From positions 1-64,000 of the forward strand of contig JANXYK010000013.1 of the NCBI GenBank assembly GCA_025350055.1: a stretch of 64,000 bases of DNA, read 5' to 3'. Source of the stretch: Gammaproteobacteria bacterium (lineage in GTDB: Bacteria > Pseudomonadota > Gammaproteobacteria > Steroidobacterales > Steroidobacteraceae). Positions 59,596 through 64,000 of the stretch are shown here, in pieces. The position numbers and the translations under genes are program-made. Position 1 is the stretch's first letter. Each line of letters opens with the position of its first letter. The notes below the pieces were generated by a model. It was not told where the DNA came from and searched no databases. It saw only the letters and a program-made list of their open reading frames with translations.

Positions 59596-60387
59596 ATGCT
59601 CGTCGAACGCATCTGGGCGGCAAATCCGCTACGCAACTACCATTACCTGATCGGCTGCGCCGAGACCGGCGAGGCGCTGGTGATCGATCCTCTGAATGCC
59701 GGCGCCTGCCTGCAGCGCGCGAAGCAGCGCGGCTGGACGATCACGCAGATCGTCAACACGCACGAACACAACGATCACACGGACGGCAATGCCGAGGTGG
59801 TGCGCGCTACCGGCGCGAAGGTGCTGGCGCATGCCGGCGCCGCGAAGCGCATCGGCGGCGTCGATCGCGGATTGGTAGCGGGCGATGTGATCCGCGTCGG
59901 CCGCAGTGTCGAGCTCGAATCACTCGACACGCCGGGCCATACGATGACGCACGTGTGCCTGCTGGCGCACGGGAGCGAGGCCGCGTTGTTCTCCGGCGAC
60001 ACGCTGTTCAATGCAGGTGTCGGCAATTGCCGCAATGGTGGCGACCCGGAACTGCTCTATAGCACCTGCCACACGCTGCTGCAGCGGCTGCCCGCGAGCA
60101 CGAAGGTCTATCCCGGGCACGACTACCTGATGAACAACCTGCGCTTCACGCAGCATGTGGAGCCGACCAATCCGACGGTGGGTGCCTGGCTCGAGCGCTA
60201 CAAGACCACGGCGGCCGAAGAAATGCCCGTGGTGACTTTGCAGGACGAGCTGCGCATCAACAGTTTTTTCAGACTCGCCGAACCGGGGTTGCGCGAGGGC
60301 CTGCGCCAGCGCGTAGCGGAGCTCGGCACGCAGGTGGGCGAGCGGGAAGTGTTCCTGAGGCTGCGCGAACTAAGAAACAGCTGGTAG
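59596..60387 (+). CDS. gloB: Hydroxyacylglutathione hydrolase (glyoxalase II)
   Basis: GloB hydrolyses S-lactoylglutathione to lactate and glutathione, ending methylglyoxal detoxification. The 263-residue metallo-beta-lactamase-fold enzyme has the metal motif THEHNDHTDGN, DTPGHTMTHVCLL, FSGDTLFNAGVGNCRNG and VYPGHDYLMNNLRF, then the C-terminal glutathione-binding domain. It starts four bases after ctaB, so it shares that transcript, though the function is unrelated. Confidence 0.96.
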   Translation: MLVERIWAANPLRNYHYLIGCAETGEALVIDPLNAGACLQRAKQRGWTITQIVNTHEHNDHTDGNAEVVRATGAKVLAHAGAAKRIGGVDRGLVAGDVIRVGRSVELESLDTPGHTMTHVCLLAHGSEAALFSGDTLFNAGVGNCRNGGDPELLYSTCHTLLQRLPASTKVYPGHDYLMNNLRFTQHVEPTNPTVGAWLERYKTTAAEEMPVVTLQDELRINSFFRLAEPGLREGLRQRVAELGTQVGEREVFLRLRELRNSW

Positions 60388-60440
60388 TGCACCAGCGCGA
60401 TTCGCTCGCGCCTTGCGTTTCGTTTTGGGGGAGATACGAG

Positions 60441-62156
60441 ATGCGGACTTGCTTCGTAACTGCGGCCATTGCCGCGATCGTGTCATCGTTCCTCGCAACG
60501 GCGGGGGCTGTGGAAGCAGCGGGAGCCGCGCCCGAGTCGCGACCCGCGGCGGACTTGATCGTCCACAACGCGCACATCTACACGGTCAATCCCGCGCAGC
60601 CCGAGGCGGCCGCGGTGGCGGTGCTGGGTGGCCGCATTGTCGCCGTGGGCTCCGATGCGGCGGCGCTGCGCTGGCGCGGTCCGGCCACCAAGGTCGTGGA
60701 CGCGCACGGCCAACGCCTGCTGCCGGGCTTCAACGATGCGCACGTGCACCTGATGGATGGCGGCGTGCTGCTGGCTTCGGTGCAGCTTAAAGACGCGAGC
60801 AGCCCGGAGGAGTTCGCGCGCCGCATCGGTGCCTTCGCGGCCACGCGGCCCTCGGGCGAATGGCTGCTGCAGGGCAATTGGGACGAGACCAAGTTCAATC
60901 CGGTGGCGTTGCCGACGCGCCAGCTCATCGACGCGGTCTCAGGCGATCATCCGGTGGCGCTGTGGCGCTACGACGGTCATGTGGTCGTCGGCAATACGCT
61001 GGCGCTGAAGCTCGCGGGCATCAGCGCGGCGACGCAGGATCCGCCCGGCGGTGTGATCGTCCGCGACGCGAACGGAGAACCCACGGGCGTACTCAAGGAT
61101 GCCGCGACCCCGCTGCTCGAGCGCGCGATCCCGGAGCCGAACCCGGAGCAGCGCCGCGCGATCATCGAGCGCGCGATGCGCGAGGCGGCCGCGCGCGGCG
61201 TGACCAGCGTGCAGGCCATGTCGATCGACTATGCGACCATCGCTGCGCTCGCCGATCTGCAACGCGAAGGCAAGCTCACGATGCGCGTGTACGCGGCGCC
61301 GGCGATCTCCGGCGTCGAGGACCTGGCGAAGCTTGGCATCGGCCGCACTTTCGGCAGCCCGATGCTGCGCATTGGCGCGCTCAAGTCATTTGCCGACGGG
61401 TCGCTGGGCGCACGCACGGCCTATTTCTTCGAAGCATTCGATGACCAACCCGGCAATCGCGGCCTGCTGTCCGCCGACATGCAGCCGCTCTCCAAGATGC
61501 GCGACTGGATGCTGCGCGCCGATGCCACCCACCTGCAGCTGTGCACGCACGCAATCGGCGATGCGGGCATCAGCGCGATCCTCGATCTTTACCAGGACAT
61601 CGAAGCCGCGCACGGCCAGCGCGATCGGCGCTGGCGCATAGAACACGCGCAGCATCTGGCGGCCAAGGATTTCGAGCGCTTCGCGAAACTCGGCGTGATC
61701 GCCTCCGTGCAGCCTTATCACGCCATCGACGATGGTCGCTGGGCCGAGGGGCGCATCGGGCATGATCGCTCCAGTCGCACCTACGCGTTCCGCACGTTGC
61801 TCGACCATGGCGTACGCCTGGCCCTCGGCACCGACTGGCCCGTGGCGCCGCTCGATCCCATGCAGACGCTGTATGCCGCGACCACGCGCGCCACGCTCGA
61901 TGGCAAACGGCCGGAGGGCTGGTTTCCGGAGCAGAAACTGACCGCCGCCGAGGCGATCACGGGGTACACGATGGGCTCGGCCTATGCCGAGTTCCAGGAT
62001 CACGAGAAGGGTTCGATAGAGACGGGCAAGCTGGCCGACTTCGTGCTGCTGAGCGCGGATCCCTTGAAGATTCCGGCCGTGGCCATTCGCGACATACACG
62101 TGCTGAATACCTGGGTGGGTGGCGTCGAGGTCTACGACGCGGCACACCCGCAATAA
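60441..62156 (+). CDS. Exported amidohydrolase (YtcJ-like)
   Basis: The ATG at 60441, preceded by GGGGGAG, gives a 571-residue protein with a signal peptide. The mature enzyme is an amidohydrolase-3 family member: ADLIVHNAHIYTVNPAQPEAA, the metal HxH in FNDAHVHLMDGG, GVTSVQAMSIDYATI, LRIGALKSFADGSLGA, THAIGDAGISAI, WRIEHAQHLAAKDF and LALGTDWPVAPLDP. The substrate is unknown. It precedes the FMN oxidoreductase by eight bases, so the two may form an exported catabolic pair. Confidence 0.9.
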   Translation: MRTCFVTAAIAAIVSSFLATAGAVEAAGAAPESRPAADLIVHNAHIYTVNPAQPEAAAVAVLGGRIVAVGSDAAALRWRGPATKVVDAHGQRLLPGFNDAHVHLMDGGVLLASVQLKDASSPEEFARRIGAFAATRPSGEWLLQGNWDETKFNPVALPTRQLIDAVSGDHPVALWRYDGHVVVGNTLALKLAGISAATQDPPGGVIVRDANGEPTGVLKDAATPLLERAIPEPNPEQRRAIIERAMREAAARGVTSVQAMSIDYATIAALADLQREGKLTMRVYAAPAISGVEDLAKLGIGRTFGSPMLRIGALKSFADGSLGARTAYFFEAFDDQPGNRGLLSADMQPLSKMRDWMLRADATHLQLCTHAIGDAGISAILDLYQDIEAAHGQRDRRWRIEHAQHLAAKDFERFAKLGVIASVQPYHAIDDGRWAEGRIGHDRSSRTYAFRTLLDHGVRLALGTDWPVAPLDPMQTLYAATTRATLDGKRPEGWFPEQKLTAAEAITGYTMGSAYAEFQDHEKGSIETGKLADFVLLSADPLKIPAVAIRDIHVLNTWVGGVEVYDAAHPQ

Positions 62157-62164
62157 GGATCGCC

Positions 62165-63415
62165 ATGGACAAAAAGAATGGGCAGCTGCGCATGGTGTCG
62201 CGCCGCAGCGTGTTGGGTGGTCTCGCGGTTCTGCCAGCCGCTGCTGCGTATGCGCTGGATGCTGCGCAGTCGCCATCGCAGCTCTTTCTGCGCGACGCGC
62301 CGCCGATCACCAGCGCCGACCAGGTGCTCAATGTGATGGAGTTCGAGGCGCTGGCGCGCACGGCGCTGCCGCCCGCACATTTCGGCTACATCGCCACGGG
62401 CACCGATGACGATCGCACCGTCGCGCGCAATCACGATGCCTACTTGCACTACGAGATCCGCGCACACCGCTTCGTCGATGTGAGCGGCGTGACCGCTGAA
62501 CGCACGGTGTTCGGCGCGAAGTGGCCGAGCCCGATCTATCTCTCGGCAGTTTCCGGCCAGCGCGCGTTTCATCCGGATGCCGAGCTGGGCACCGCGCAGG
62601 CCGCGCGCAGCCGCTCGATGCAGATGATGCTCTCCTGCGTGGCCTCGACACCGGTCGAGCCGGTGATCCAGGCGCGCGGCGCGCCGATCTGGCAGCAACT
62701 GTATCCGACCGATGACTGGAACGTCACCGAGGGCGTGGTGCGGCGTGCGGAACGTGCCGGCGCCACTGCGATTGTGCTCACCGTCGACAGCCAGGTTGGC
62801 CGCGGCTACACGCGCAACAACGAAACGCTGGCGCGTGCGATGCGGATCGACAACCGTACCTGCACCGATTGCCACGTGAACAACTCGCATGACCCGGTGC
62901 ATCGGGCGCCGATGTTCGAGGGGCTGGATGTCTCGCACGTCGATGCACTGGCACCGCCCAACATCACACCGCAGTACCTCGACCGCCTGCGCAAGCTGGT
63001 CACGGTGAAGTTCATGGTCAAGGGCGTGGTCGAGGGCGAGGATGCCGCGCTGGCAGTCAATCACGGCGTCGATGGCGTGATCGTTTCCAACCACGGTGGC
63101 CGCAATGAGGAAACGCTGCGCGCCACGCTCGACTGCCTGCCAGGGGTTGCGGCCGCTGTCGGCAAGCGCGTGCCGGTGCTGCTCGATGGTGGGGTACGGC
63201 GAGGCACTGATGTCTTCAAGGCGATTGCGCTCGGTGCTACCGGCGTAGGTATCGGCCGACCGCAGGTGTGGGGACTTGCAGCCTTCGGTCAGAGCGGCGT
63301 GGAGCGTGTGATCGACCTGCTGAATCGCGAGCTGCTGCAGATCATGCGCCAGGCCGGCACGCCGACATTGGCGGATATCAAGCCCACGCATGTGATGGCC
63401 TCGACCTGGCGCTGA
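62165..63415 (+). CDS. Exported FMN alpha-hydroxy acid oxidoreductase with a CxxCH motif
   Basis: This 416-residue protein belongs to the FMN-dependent alpha-hydroxy acid oxidase/dehydrogenase family (lactate, glycolate, mandelate). SRRSVLGGLAVLPAAAA at the N-terminus looks like a Tat signal, fitting export of a folded flavoprotein. Core motifs are YIATGTDDDRTVARNHDAY, AIVLTVDSQVGRG, the catalytic His in VIVSNHGGRN, and VLLDGGVRRGTDVFKAIALG. The variable loop 4 region contains a c-type heme motif CTDCH (Cys233, Cys236, His237), absent from lactate and glycolate oxidases I know. A periplasmic flavocytochrome is plausible. Confidence 0.9.
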   Translation: MDKKNGQLRMVSRRSVLGGLAVLPAAAAYALDAAQSPSQLFLRDAPPITSADQVLNVMEFEALARTALPPAHFGYIATGTDDDRTVARNHDAYLHYEIRAHRFVDVSGVTAERTVFGAKWPSPIYLSAVSGQRAFHPDAELGTAQAARSRSMQMMLSCVASTPVEPVIQARGAPIWQQLYPTDDWNVTEGVVRRAERAGATAIVLTVDSQVGRGYTRNNETLARAMRIDNRTCTDCHVNNSHDPVHRAPMFEGLDVSHVDALAPPNITPQYLDRLRKLVTVKFMVKGVVEGEDAALAVNHGVDGVIVSNHGGRNEETLRATLDCLPGVAAAVGKRVPVLLDGGVRRGTDVFKAIALGATGVGIGRPQVWGLAAFGQSGVERVIDLLNRELLQIMRQAGTPTLADIKPTHVMASTWR

Positions 63416-63434
63416 TCGGTGCGCCCGGAAAGCG

Positions 63435-63854
63435 CTAGCGCGCGGGCGCCGGCGCAGGACAGGGTTTCAATTCCACTGACAGCGCATGCATCTCGGTAGT
63501 GCCGGTATTCTCGAGCGCGTGCAGCGTTGCCTCGCGCCAGGACAGATCGCCGGCCTTGAGATCATGGTCGCTGGCCTCGCCCTCGGGCGTGACGCTGCGC
63601 ATCTTGCCGCCGGCCAGCACATAGACCAGCCCGTGCGGATGCGCGTGCATCGGGTCATTCACGCCGGGCTTGATGCGATATTCGTAGACGCGCACGTAGT
63701 CATTCTCGAAGCGCGGGGTGTATAGCTGCGGTGAGAGCTTTAGCGGGTCGAGCTCAATCACGGCAGGGGCAGCGCTGGCCAGGGTGCTCATGGTGGCGAC
63801 GGTCGCCGTGATGCCGCAGAGCGTTCCACAGATGAATAGCGTAGTTCGGGTCAT
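63435..63854 (-). CDS. Exported cupin-domain protein
   Basis: The 139-residue product has a signal peptide (to about residue 28) and a single cupin barrel: VRVYEYRIKPGVNDPMHAHP with the HxH metal pair, LVYVLAGGKMRSVTPEG, and HALENTGTTEMHALSVELK with further His. It converges with the FMN oxidoreductase gene at 20 bases. Role unknown; it could bind a small ligand in the periplasm. Confidence 0.85.
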   Translation of the reverse strand: MTRTTLFICGTLCGITATVATMSTLASAAPAVIELDPLKLSPQLYTPRFENDYVRVYEYRIKPGVNDPMHAHPHGLVYVLAGGKMRSVTPEGEASDHDLKAGDLSWREATLHALENTGTTEMHALSVELKPCPAPAPAR

Positions 63855-63926
63855 GTGGGCTCCTGAAATTGGCGCGCCGGATGCGCGAGGCGATAAGATG
63901 GGCTCACAAGTACGGGGGAGTCAATC

Positions 63927-64000
63927 ATGCAGCATGCCTACGCGGCCAGATTTGCCGCACTGCTGTGCTCATTTACGCTCGCGGGCGCCTGCCAGGCGGC
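63927..64000 (+). CDS. Start of an exported protein (cut by the window edge)
   Basis: An ATG at 63927 follows GGGGGAG at good spacing and opens a frame, MQHAYAARFAALLCSFTLAG, that runs off the right edge after 24 full codons. It looks like a signal peptide. Nothing else can be said. Confidence 0.6.
   Translation, partial: MQHAYAARFAALLCSFTLAGACQA

Follow-up and report, generated by a model that had tools for sequence, protein, structure and literature searches.

An exported FMN-dependent hydroxy-acid oxidoreductase with a clade-specific CxxCH motif in its active-site loop: a proposed c heme

An open reading frame in the window, the 64,000-nucleotide stretch of gammaproteobacterial DNA analyzed here, likely encodes an exported FMN-dependent (S)-2-hydroxy-acid dehydrogenase that carries its own c heme in loop 4, the lid of the active site. 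The gene (positions 62165–63415, forward strand) starts with ATG and codes for 416 amino acids. Its CxxCH motif, CTDCH at residues 233–237 (62861–62875, forward strand), is the proposed site of covalent heme attachment, with His237 as the proximal ligand. Together with a second histidine, His72 (62378–62380, forward strand), this motif defines a conserved clade. Judged from the patterns of conservation described below, covalent attachment of a heme c in loop 4 is very likely. The enzyme family is already known, whereas the proposed outlet for its electrons would be new.

The gene codes for an FMN alpha-hydroxy-acid oxidoreductase in which the catalytic residues of the family are kept. The best Pfam family by far is FMN_dh (PF01070; E 1.4e-103, residues 64–410, 347 bits vs. 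a cut-off of 24.9). A short Glu_synthase match barely exceeds its cut-off (20.8 vs. 20.4 bits) and is explained by the barrel common to both families. All NCBIfam matches are far under their curated cut-offs, including the top one to the MftD model (201 vs. 471 bits). A phmmer search matched 48 distinct sequences of solved relatives, and the window protein retains the active-site residues of glycolate oxidase. An Rfam search over positions 60000–64000 gave no match at the gathering score.

Alignment with glycolate oxidase reveals that the catalytic His, Arg, Lys, and Asp and two Tyr residues of the PF01070 family are all present. We take Tyr75, Tyr180, Asp208, Lys286, His310, and Arg313 of the window protein to be the equivalents of Tyr24, Tyr129, Asp157, Lys230, His254, and Arg257 of the spinach enzyme. 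His310 and Arg313 (63092–63103, forward strand), by homology the catalytic base and the substrate-carboxylate arginine, are found in 112/112 and 111/112 CxxCH-containing proteins, respectively. The active-site tyrosine (Tyr75; 62387–62389, forward strand) is Tyr in 50 and Phe in two of the 52 CxxCH members that cover the position. An AlphaFold2 model (mean pLDDT 72.5, but <50 at residues 210–240 in loop 4) has a glycolate oxidase-like barrel fold, and the PDB structures most like this barrel are glycolate oxidases (1gox, TM 0.73/0.86). The full FMN oxidase core with SNHGGRN, noticed in a sequence-only reading of the same DNA, is therefore borne out by the Pfam match and the conserved catalytic residues.

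Translation and alignment also agree with the earlier placement of CTDCH in loop 4. The motif follows Asp208 and lies between beta-strand 4 and helix 4, in the stretch that the alignments delimit as residues 209–262 (62789–62950, forward strand). When the mature protein was shuffled 20,000 times, CxxCH arose in 0.165% of the shuffles. The motif alone is thus only mildly improbable by chance, and it is conservation that carries the weight.

Cys233, Cys236, and His237 occur in 112/112 members of the clade, which are 37–100% identical to the window protein (itself included), and the two residues in the middle of the motif form 40 different pairs across these proteins, as is typical of a heme c site. 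The collection holds 157 distinct entries: the 112 with CxxCH, 40 relatives without it, three fragments missing the region, L173 with a single Cys, and L054, which is the window again. The conservation counts omit L054, L173, and the fragments L212, L117, and L116. Among the first relatives, every protein of at least 42% identity had CxxCH, and the three less similar ones lacked it. Identity fails to separate the groups in the wide set, where CxxCH members reach down to 37% and motif-less relatives up to 44%.

Relatives were drawn from sets of genomes, with plasmids and viral contigs also sampled. The first draw comprised 60 genomes, 11 of which matched at E 1e-60, plus one MAG. Matches were present in five of 369 genomes of the class draw (with CxxCH only in the window's own), in 40 of 200 of the family draw, in seven of 398 of the phylum draw (six of them with CxxCH), in eight of 149 of the second-family draw, and in 89 of 296 of the order draw (not all with CxxCH). 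Only the top few first-look candidates per genome were scored in the larger draws, so that the member counts are lower bounds. Identical copies (five pairs) were merged before counting.

Members of the clade span eight families (f1, f6, f7, f11, f15, f219, f229, and f242) and at least two classes. Most come from one bacterial order, and the rows are therefore not independent. One member is carried by the alphaproteobacterium Methylobacterium bullatum, and its protein matches that of G607. None of the 14 genomes searched from the same genus has a match at E 1e-60, which indicates that the gene is accessory. Some genomes (G030, G1182, and G1191) hold three paralogues that are 43–49% identical to the window protein. 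Two IMG/VR viral contigs (L112 and L113) have clade members near the contig end, and these possibly represent host flanks of proviruses. A scan of viral contigs with the own-genome paralogue as the query gave no match.

Four alignment columns are at least 98% conserved inside the clade and at most 30% outside: His72, Cys233, Cys236, and His237. The column of Tyr215 also passed this filter but is filled in two rows only. His72 is present in 110/110 CxxCH members that cover the position and in 0/40 relatives without the motif, which have Ala, Thr, Val, Met, Phe, Leu, or Ile instead. This residue sits in PPAHFGY, three residues or one helical turn ahead of Tyr75, in a helix that spans residues 70–78 of the model. 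The only other histidines conserved as highly are His237 and the catalytic His310. By elimination, His72 is the sole clade-wide histidine candidate for the second axial ligand, and its strict co-conservation with CxxCH makes it somewhat more likely than not that this residue is the distal heme ligand.

Other candidates for this ligand fare less well. The sequence-only reading had favored the methionine in RAPMFEG (residues 247–253), a choice that the wider alignment contradicts. Position 250 is Met in 94/112 members and otherwise Leu, Asn, Val, Ile, Ala, or Ser, which rules out Met250 as a general distal ligand and leaves His72 as the better candidate. His242, part of an HD motif in the nearest subclade, is likewise ruled out, as position 242 is His in 25/112 members. 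Met394 is invariant in the clade but is common to 35/40 motif-less relatives. No invariant Cys exists in the clade beyond Cys233 and Cys236.

Loop 4 and column 72 were left out of the alignments from which phylogenetic trees were computed; these are quick trees with no bootstrap and with long outer branches. On a tree of 66 rows, CxxCH requires one change (SH-aLRT 97). On a tree of 150 rows, which also omits the fragments L211, L171, and L169, CxxCH requires two changes and His72 two. The clade including L173 has an SH-aLRT value of 99 on the larger tree, and a constraint that groups the 109 CxxCH rows to the exclusion of L173 was not rejected (p 0.226).

L173 carries SSFCH, with Ser in place of Cys233, and it has Arg for His72 and Ala for Tyr75. 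This protein is nested in the clade, within a set of 12 rows of which 11 have CxxCH (SH-aLRT 100). The putative heme site and His72 are thus lost together in L173, and catalysis is perhaps lost as well. As a separate matter, this gene (G1256, contig 23) may be decaying or may have acquired a new role.

The sister of the clade on the 150-row tree is a group of 27 proteins (SH-aLRT 98) that is joined to the clade with a value of 100. These proteins (L143–L163, L165–L168, L105, and L170) come from family f15 of the same order and offer a natural comparison for the proposed heme enzyme. A twin Arg is present in 27/27 of them, CxxCH in 0/27, and His72 in 0/27, and loop 4 is short in those inspected. 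Since the export signal is common to the clade and its sister, and the motif is found in the clade only, export probably predates the heme site, which would have been added later.

The signal of the window protein itself, VSRRSVLGGLAVLPAAAAYA, contains Arg13–Arg14 (62201–62206). The Tat-like region as a whole (MVSRRSVLGGLAVLPAAAAYAL; 62195–62260, forward strand) combines the twin Arg with a hydrophobic stretch, just as had been read from the sequence. The same arrangement is seen in 108/112 CxxCH members, and the four without it are the fragments L171 and L211, L093, which is cut at a contig end, and L081, which has no in-frame signal. An alignment of the family, suggested at the outset as a check, was therefore positive: CxxCH is kept throughout a clade that has the Tat signal almost throughout. 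TatC (PF00902) is present in four of five genomes tested, and none was found in the window's own assembly (G000). This absence may reflect an assembly gap, given 76 contigs and 96% completeness.

The sequence of loop 4 bears some likeness to cytochromes c. Class I cytochromes c, such as that of horse, have P-x-L-x-G after CxxCH with the same spacing as that found most often here. The pattern P-x-[FYLW]-x-G occurs downstream of CxxCH in 75/112 members when strictly applied, and the commonest His-to-Pro spacing is 12 (39 of these 75). The window protein fits the strict pattern with PMFEG at residues 249–253 (62909–62923, forward strand), which we take to resemble the P-x-L-x-G of class I cytochromes c. 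Four motif variants (CSACH, CAACH, CLACH, and CASCH) are common to the clade and the cytochromes of the window's own genome, where PF13442 cytochromes are found above the cut-off at nine places.

Profile searches yield a hint of the same kind. When 10 of the 112 loops were compared alone with Pfam, the matches were weak, all below the cut-off, and chiefly to c-cytochrome families; one segment matched a RING finger (E 0.12) and one had no match. The loop of the window protein alone matched only Tll0287-like (E 0.17, below the cut-off). Pfam profiles detect no cytochrome c domain in the whole window protein, and the loop segments give sub-cut-off matches only. Because any CxxCH attracts such matches, they are only a hint, and we do not accept a cytochrome origin of the loop as established: sub-cut-off matches and similar spacing are suggestive at most. 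We consider the chances to be about even that the protein is a flavocytochrome c of one domain, produced by a single insertion of a short cytochrome c-like piece (CxxCH and then P-x-F-x-G) into the lid of a Tat-exported FMN enzyme, with a histidine of the barrel as the second ligand.

The genes needed for heme attachment are widespread among the hosts. CcmF and CcmE are both present in the window's own genome. Among 46 other member genomes tested, which come from the draws before the second-family and order draws, 40 have CcmF. The six without a CcmF match are drafts (82–92% complete), with CcmE present in two. At least one of the two genes is therefore found in 43/47 genomes tested, the window's own included, and both are missing in 4/47 (drafts, 82–91% complete).

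Three other explanations for the conserved residues were weighed. If the heme c were five-coordinate, with no distal ligand, it could serve as a peroxidase or ligand-sensing site at the entrance to the active site in place of a simple electron relay, and His72 would bind the substrate or a heme propionate. The variability of positions 250 and 242 (Met in 94/112 and His in 25/112) agrees with this arrangement, and the distal role of His72 is itself a proposal drawn from conservation. We nevertheless regard a five-coordinate heme as unlikely, since His72 is the sole extra invariant residue and tracks CxxCH in both gain and loss. In addition, flavocytochrome b2 has a His/His heme according to the accessible part of a survey (PMC6472588). 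A Tyr143–heme propionate contact in flavocytochrome b2 was looked for in the literature and was not found.

Another explanation, and the main rival to a heme, is that Cys233, Cys236, His237, and His72 form a structural or regulatory site for Zn or another metal, by which loop 4 would be fastened to the barrel of an ordinary exported hydroxy-acid oxidase or quinone-linked dehydrogenase. The four clade-specific invariants make up a Cys2His2 set, His72 is lost along with Cys233 in L173, and one of the ten loop segments resembles a RING finger, albeit weakly (E 0.12). The sister group is also exported without the motif, and export alone is thus no argument for heme. Against a metal site, His is adjacent to the second Cys in 112/112 members, which is the heme c signature. 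Adjacent residues seldom bind the same zinc. The middle residues of the motif are also those of cytochromes c, as the four pairs shared with the genome's own cytochromes illustrate. For these reasons, we judge a metal site to be quite improbable. A disulfide between Cys233 and Cys236, redox-active or structural, that locks loop 4 or senses redox there, with the His coincidental or electrostatic, would fit the fact that no further invariant Cys is available for either to pair with, and yet is hardly credible because it leaves both the 112/112 conservation of His237 and the strict gain and loss of His72 with the motif unexplained.

A heme c in loop 4, as we prefer to read these data, suggests the following sequence of events. 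The FMN barrel would fold and load FMN in the cytoplasm and then leave by the Tat system, as its twin-Arg signal implies. Once the protein is in the periplasm, heme would be linked by the Ccm heme lyase to two cysteines of the still-flexible loop, Cys233 and Cys236. Loop 4 is described as flexible in the FMN hydroxy-acid family in the available part of PMC10153336, so Ccm could reach it in the folded protein with no unfolding of the remainder, which may be why Tat export and heme c go together.

The proximal ligand would be His237, as usual for a CxxCH motif, and the distal one His72, which lies on the helix just ahead of Tyr75. By homology, oxidation of a 2-hydroxy acid by His310 and Arg313 would yield the corresponding 2-keto acid and reduced FMN. 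FMN could then hand over its electrons singly to the heme, which would pass them to a soluble cytochrome c or an oxidase and so into the respiratory chain; that one of these is the electron acceptor is reasonably probable. The compact flavocytochrome c envisaged in the sequence-only reading thus stands in part: a motif-bearing clade with a Tat signal exists (112/112 and 108/112), and the proposals of Met250 as a ligand and of an amidohydrolase as the source of substrate (see below) are set aside.

The FMN hydroxy-acid family is the standard case of one flavin core wired to different acceptors. Glycolate and hydroxy-acid oxidases and L-lactate oxidases share the fold and the catalytic residues with the window protein; they use O2 and are not known to carry an export signal. 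The five of the 48 solved relatives whose alignments were inspected, unlike the window protein, lack both CxxCH in loop 4 and the histidine that corresponds to His72. (S)-Mandelate dehydrogenase is similar in that loop 4 has been given a second job, which in that enzyme is insertion in the membrane; it is not known to contain heme. Flavocytochrome c sulfide dehydrogenase, Fcc3, and p-cresol methylhydroxylase differ in that they use FAD, carry their cytochromes in separate domains or subunits, and have other folds.

The acceptors listed for the family in the accessible part of PMC8491902 are O2, cytochrome c via a fused b5 domain, or quinone, and the loop 4 of (S)-mandelate dehydrogenase is given there as longer. 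The portion available of PMC6472588 sorts cytochrome-bearing flavoenzymes into those with b-type domains, c-type subunits, and several hemes; its examples include the three FAD enzymes, which like the proposed protein combine flavin with heme c, and flavocytochrome b2, whose heme b has His/His ligation of the type that we propose for the window protein. Flavocytochrome b2 (yeast L-lactate:cytochrome c oxidoreductase, EC 1.1.2.3) belongs with the window protein by its FMN barrel (phmmer matches to 1kbj and 1fcb) and uses the route from FMN through heme to cytochrome c that is proposed here. In contrast, its non-covalent heme b is held by a separate N-terminal cytochrome b5 domain, whereas the proposed heme of the window protein is covalent and lies in loop 4. 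Pfam finds no Cyt-b5 domain in the window protein at a threshold of E 0.001, which rules out membership in the flavocytochrome b2 group. A Cache domain with heme c (DUF3365/Tll0287), the family behind the one weak Pfam match of the window protein's loop, as presented in the accessible part of PMC12889525, offers a parallel in that a CxxCH-bearing fragment derived from cytochrome c lies within an unrelated fold; it is a sensor domain and, in this fold and function, unlike the enzyme. A literature search that reached few subscription papers found no description of heme c in the FMN hydroxy-acid family.

If the proposal is correct, a c heme grafted into the active-site loop represents a further wiring of the flavin core, achieved with four residues and a short loop. 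The lid that gates substrate would double as the electron outlet. In this protein, heme would be joined to a Tat substrate that is already folded, and a heme c motif would, as in the heme Cache domain, have been recruited into another fold. As a natural fused-heme biocatalyst, the protein might find use on electrodes.

The gene directly upstream encodes an exported Amidohydro_3 protein (60444–62156, forward strand; PF07969, E 3.5e-113). Its stop codon ends at 62156, and a gap of eight bases separates it from the ATG of the FMN enzyme, as had been noted earlier; the two genes are perhaps co-transcribed. Further upstream are a glyoxalase II-like gene and then a cytochrome c oxidase cluster with COX1, Cox11, COX3, SURF1, and CtaA/COX15, in which a UbiA-type prenyltransferase occupies the place of CtaB.

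The neighborhood was surveyed at L004, L051, and L053–L110, less L074, L075, L077, L108, and L109. Among the loci listed, the arrangement in the window is not conserved, and no conserved operon partner emerged. A homologous amidohydrolase lies directly upstream only in the window, L084, L086, and L087 among these loci, and this distribution fails to support the suggestion that it supplies the substrate. The latter three are close relatives whose amidohydrolases are 28–30% identical to that of the window. L081 has an amidohydrolase at −3. At L083 and L093, we read the downstream gene as presumably a PQQ-type dehydrogenase, accompanied by a small CxxCH protein.

Two observations concern the surroundings of the gene. 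Two exported Amidohydro_3 proteins (60444–62156 and L054:9928–11619), about 37% identical to each other, flank the FMN enzyme and a small exported cupin. Beyond the window, L054:11734–15045 (about 65733–69044 of contig C42) encodes a UvrD-type helicase of 1104 amino acids with an internal Pfam intein-splicing match (E 3.4e-12).
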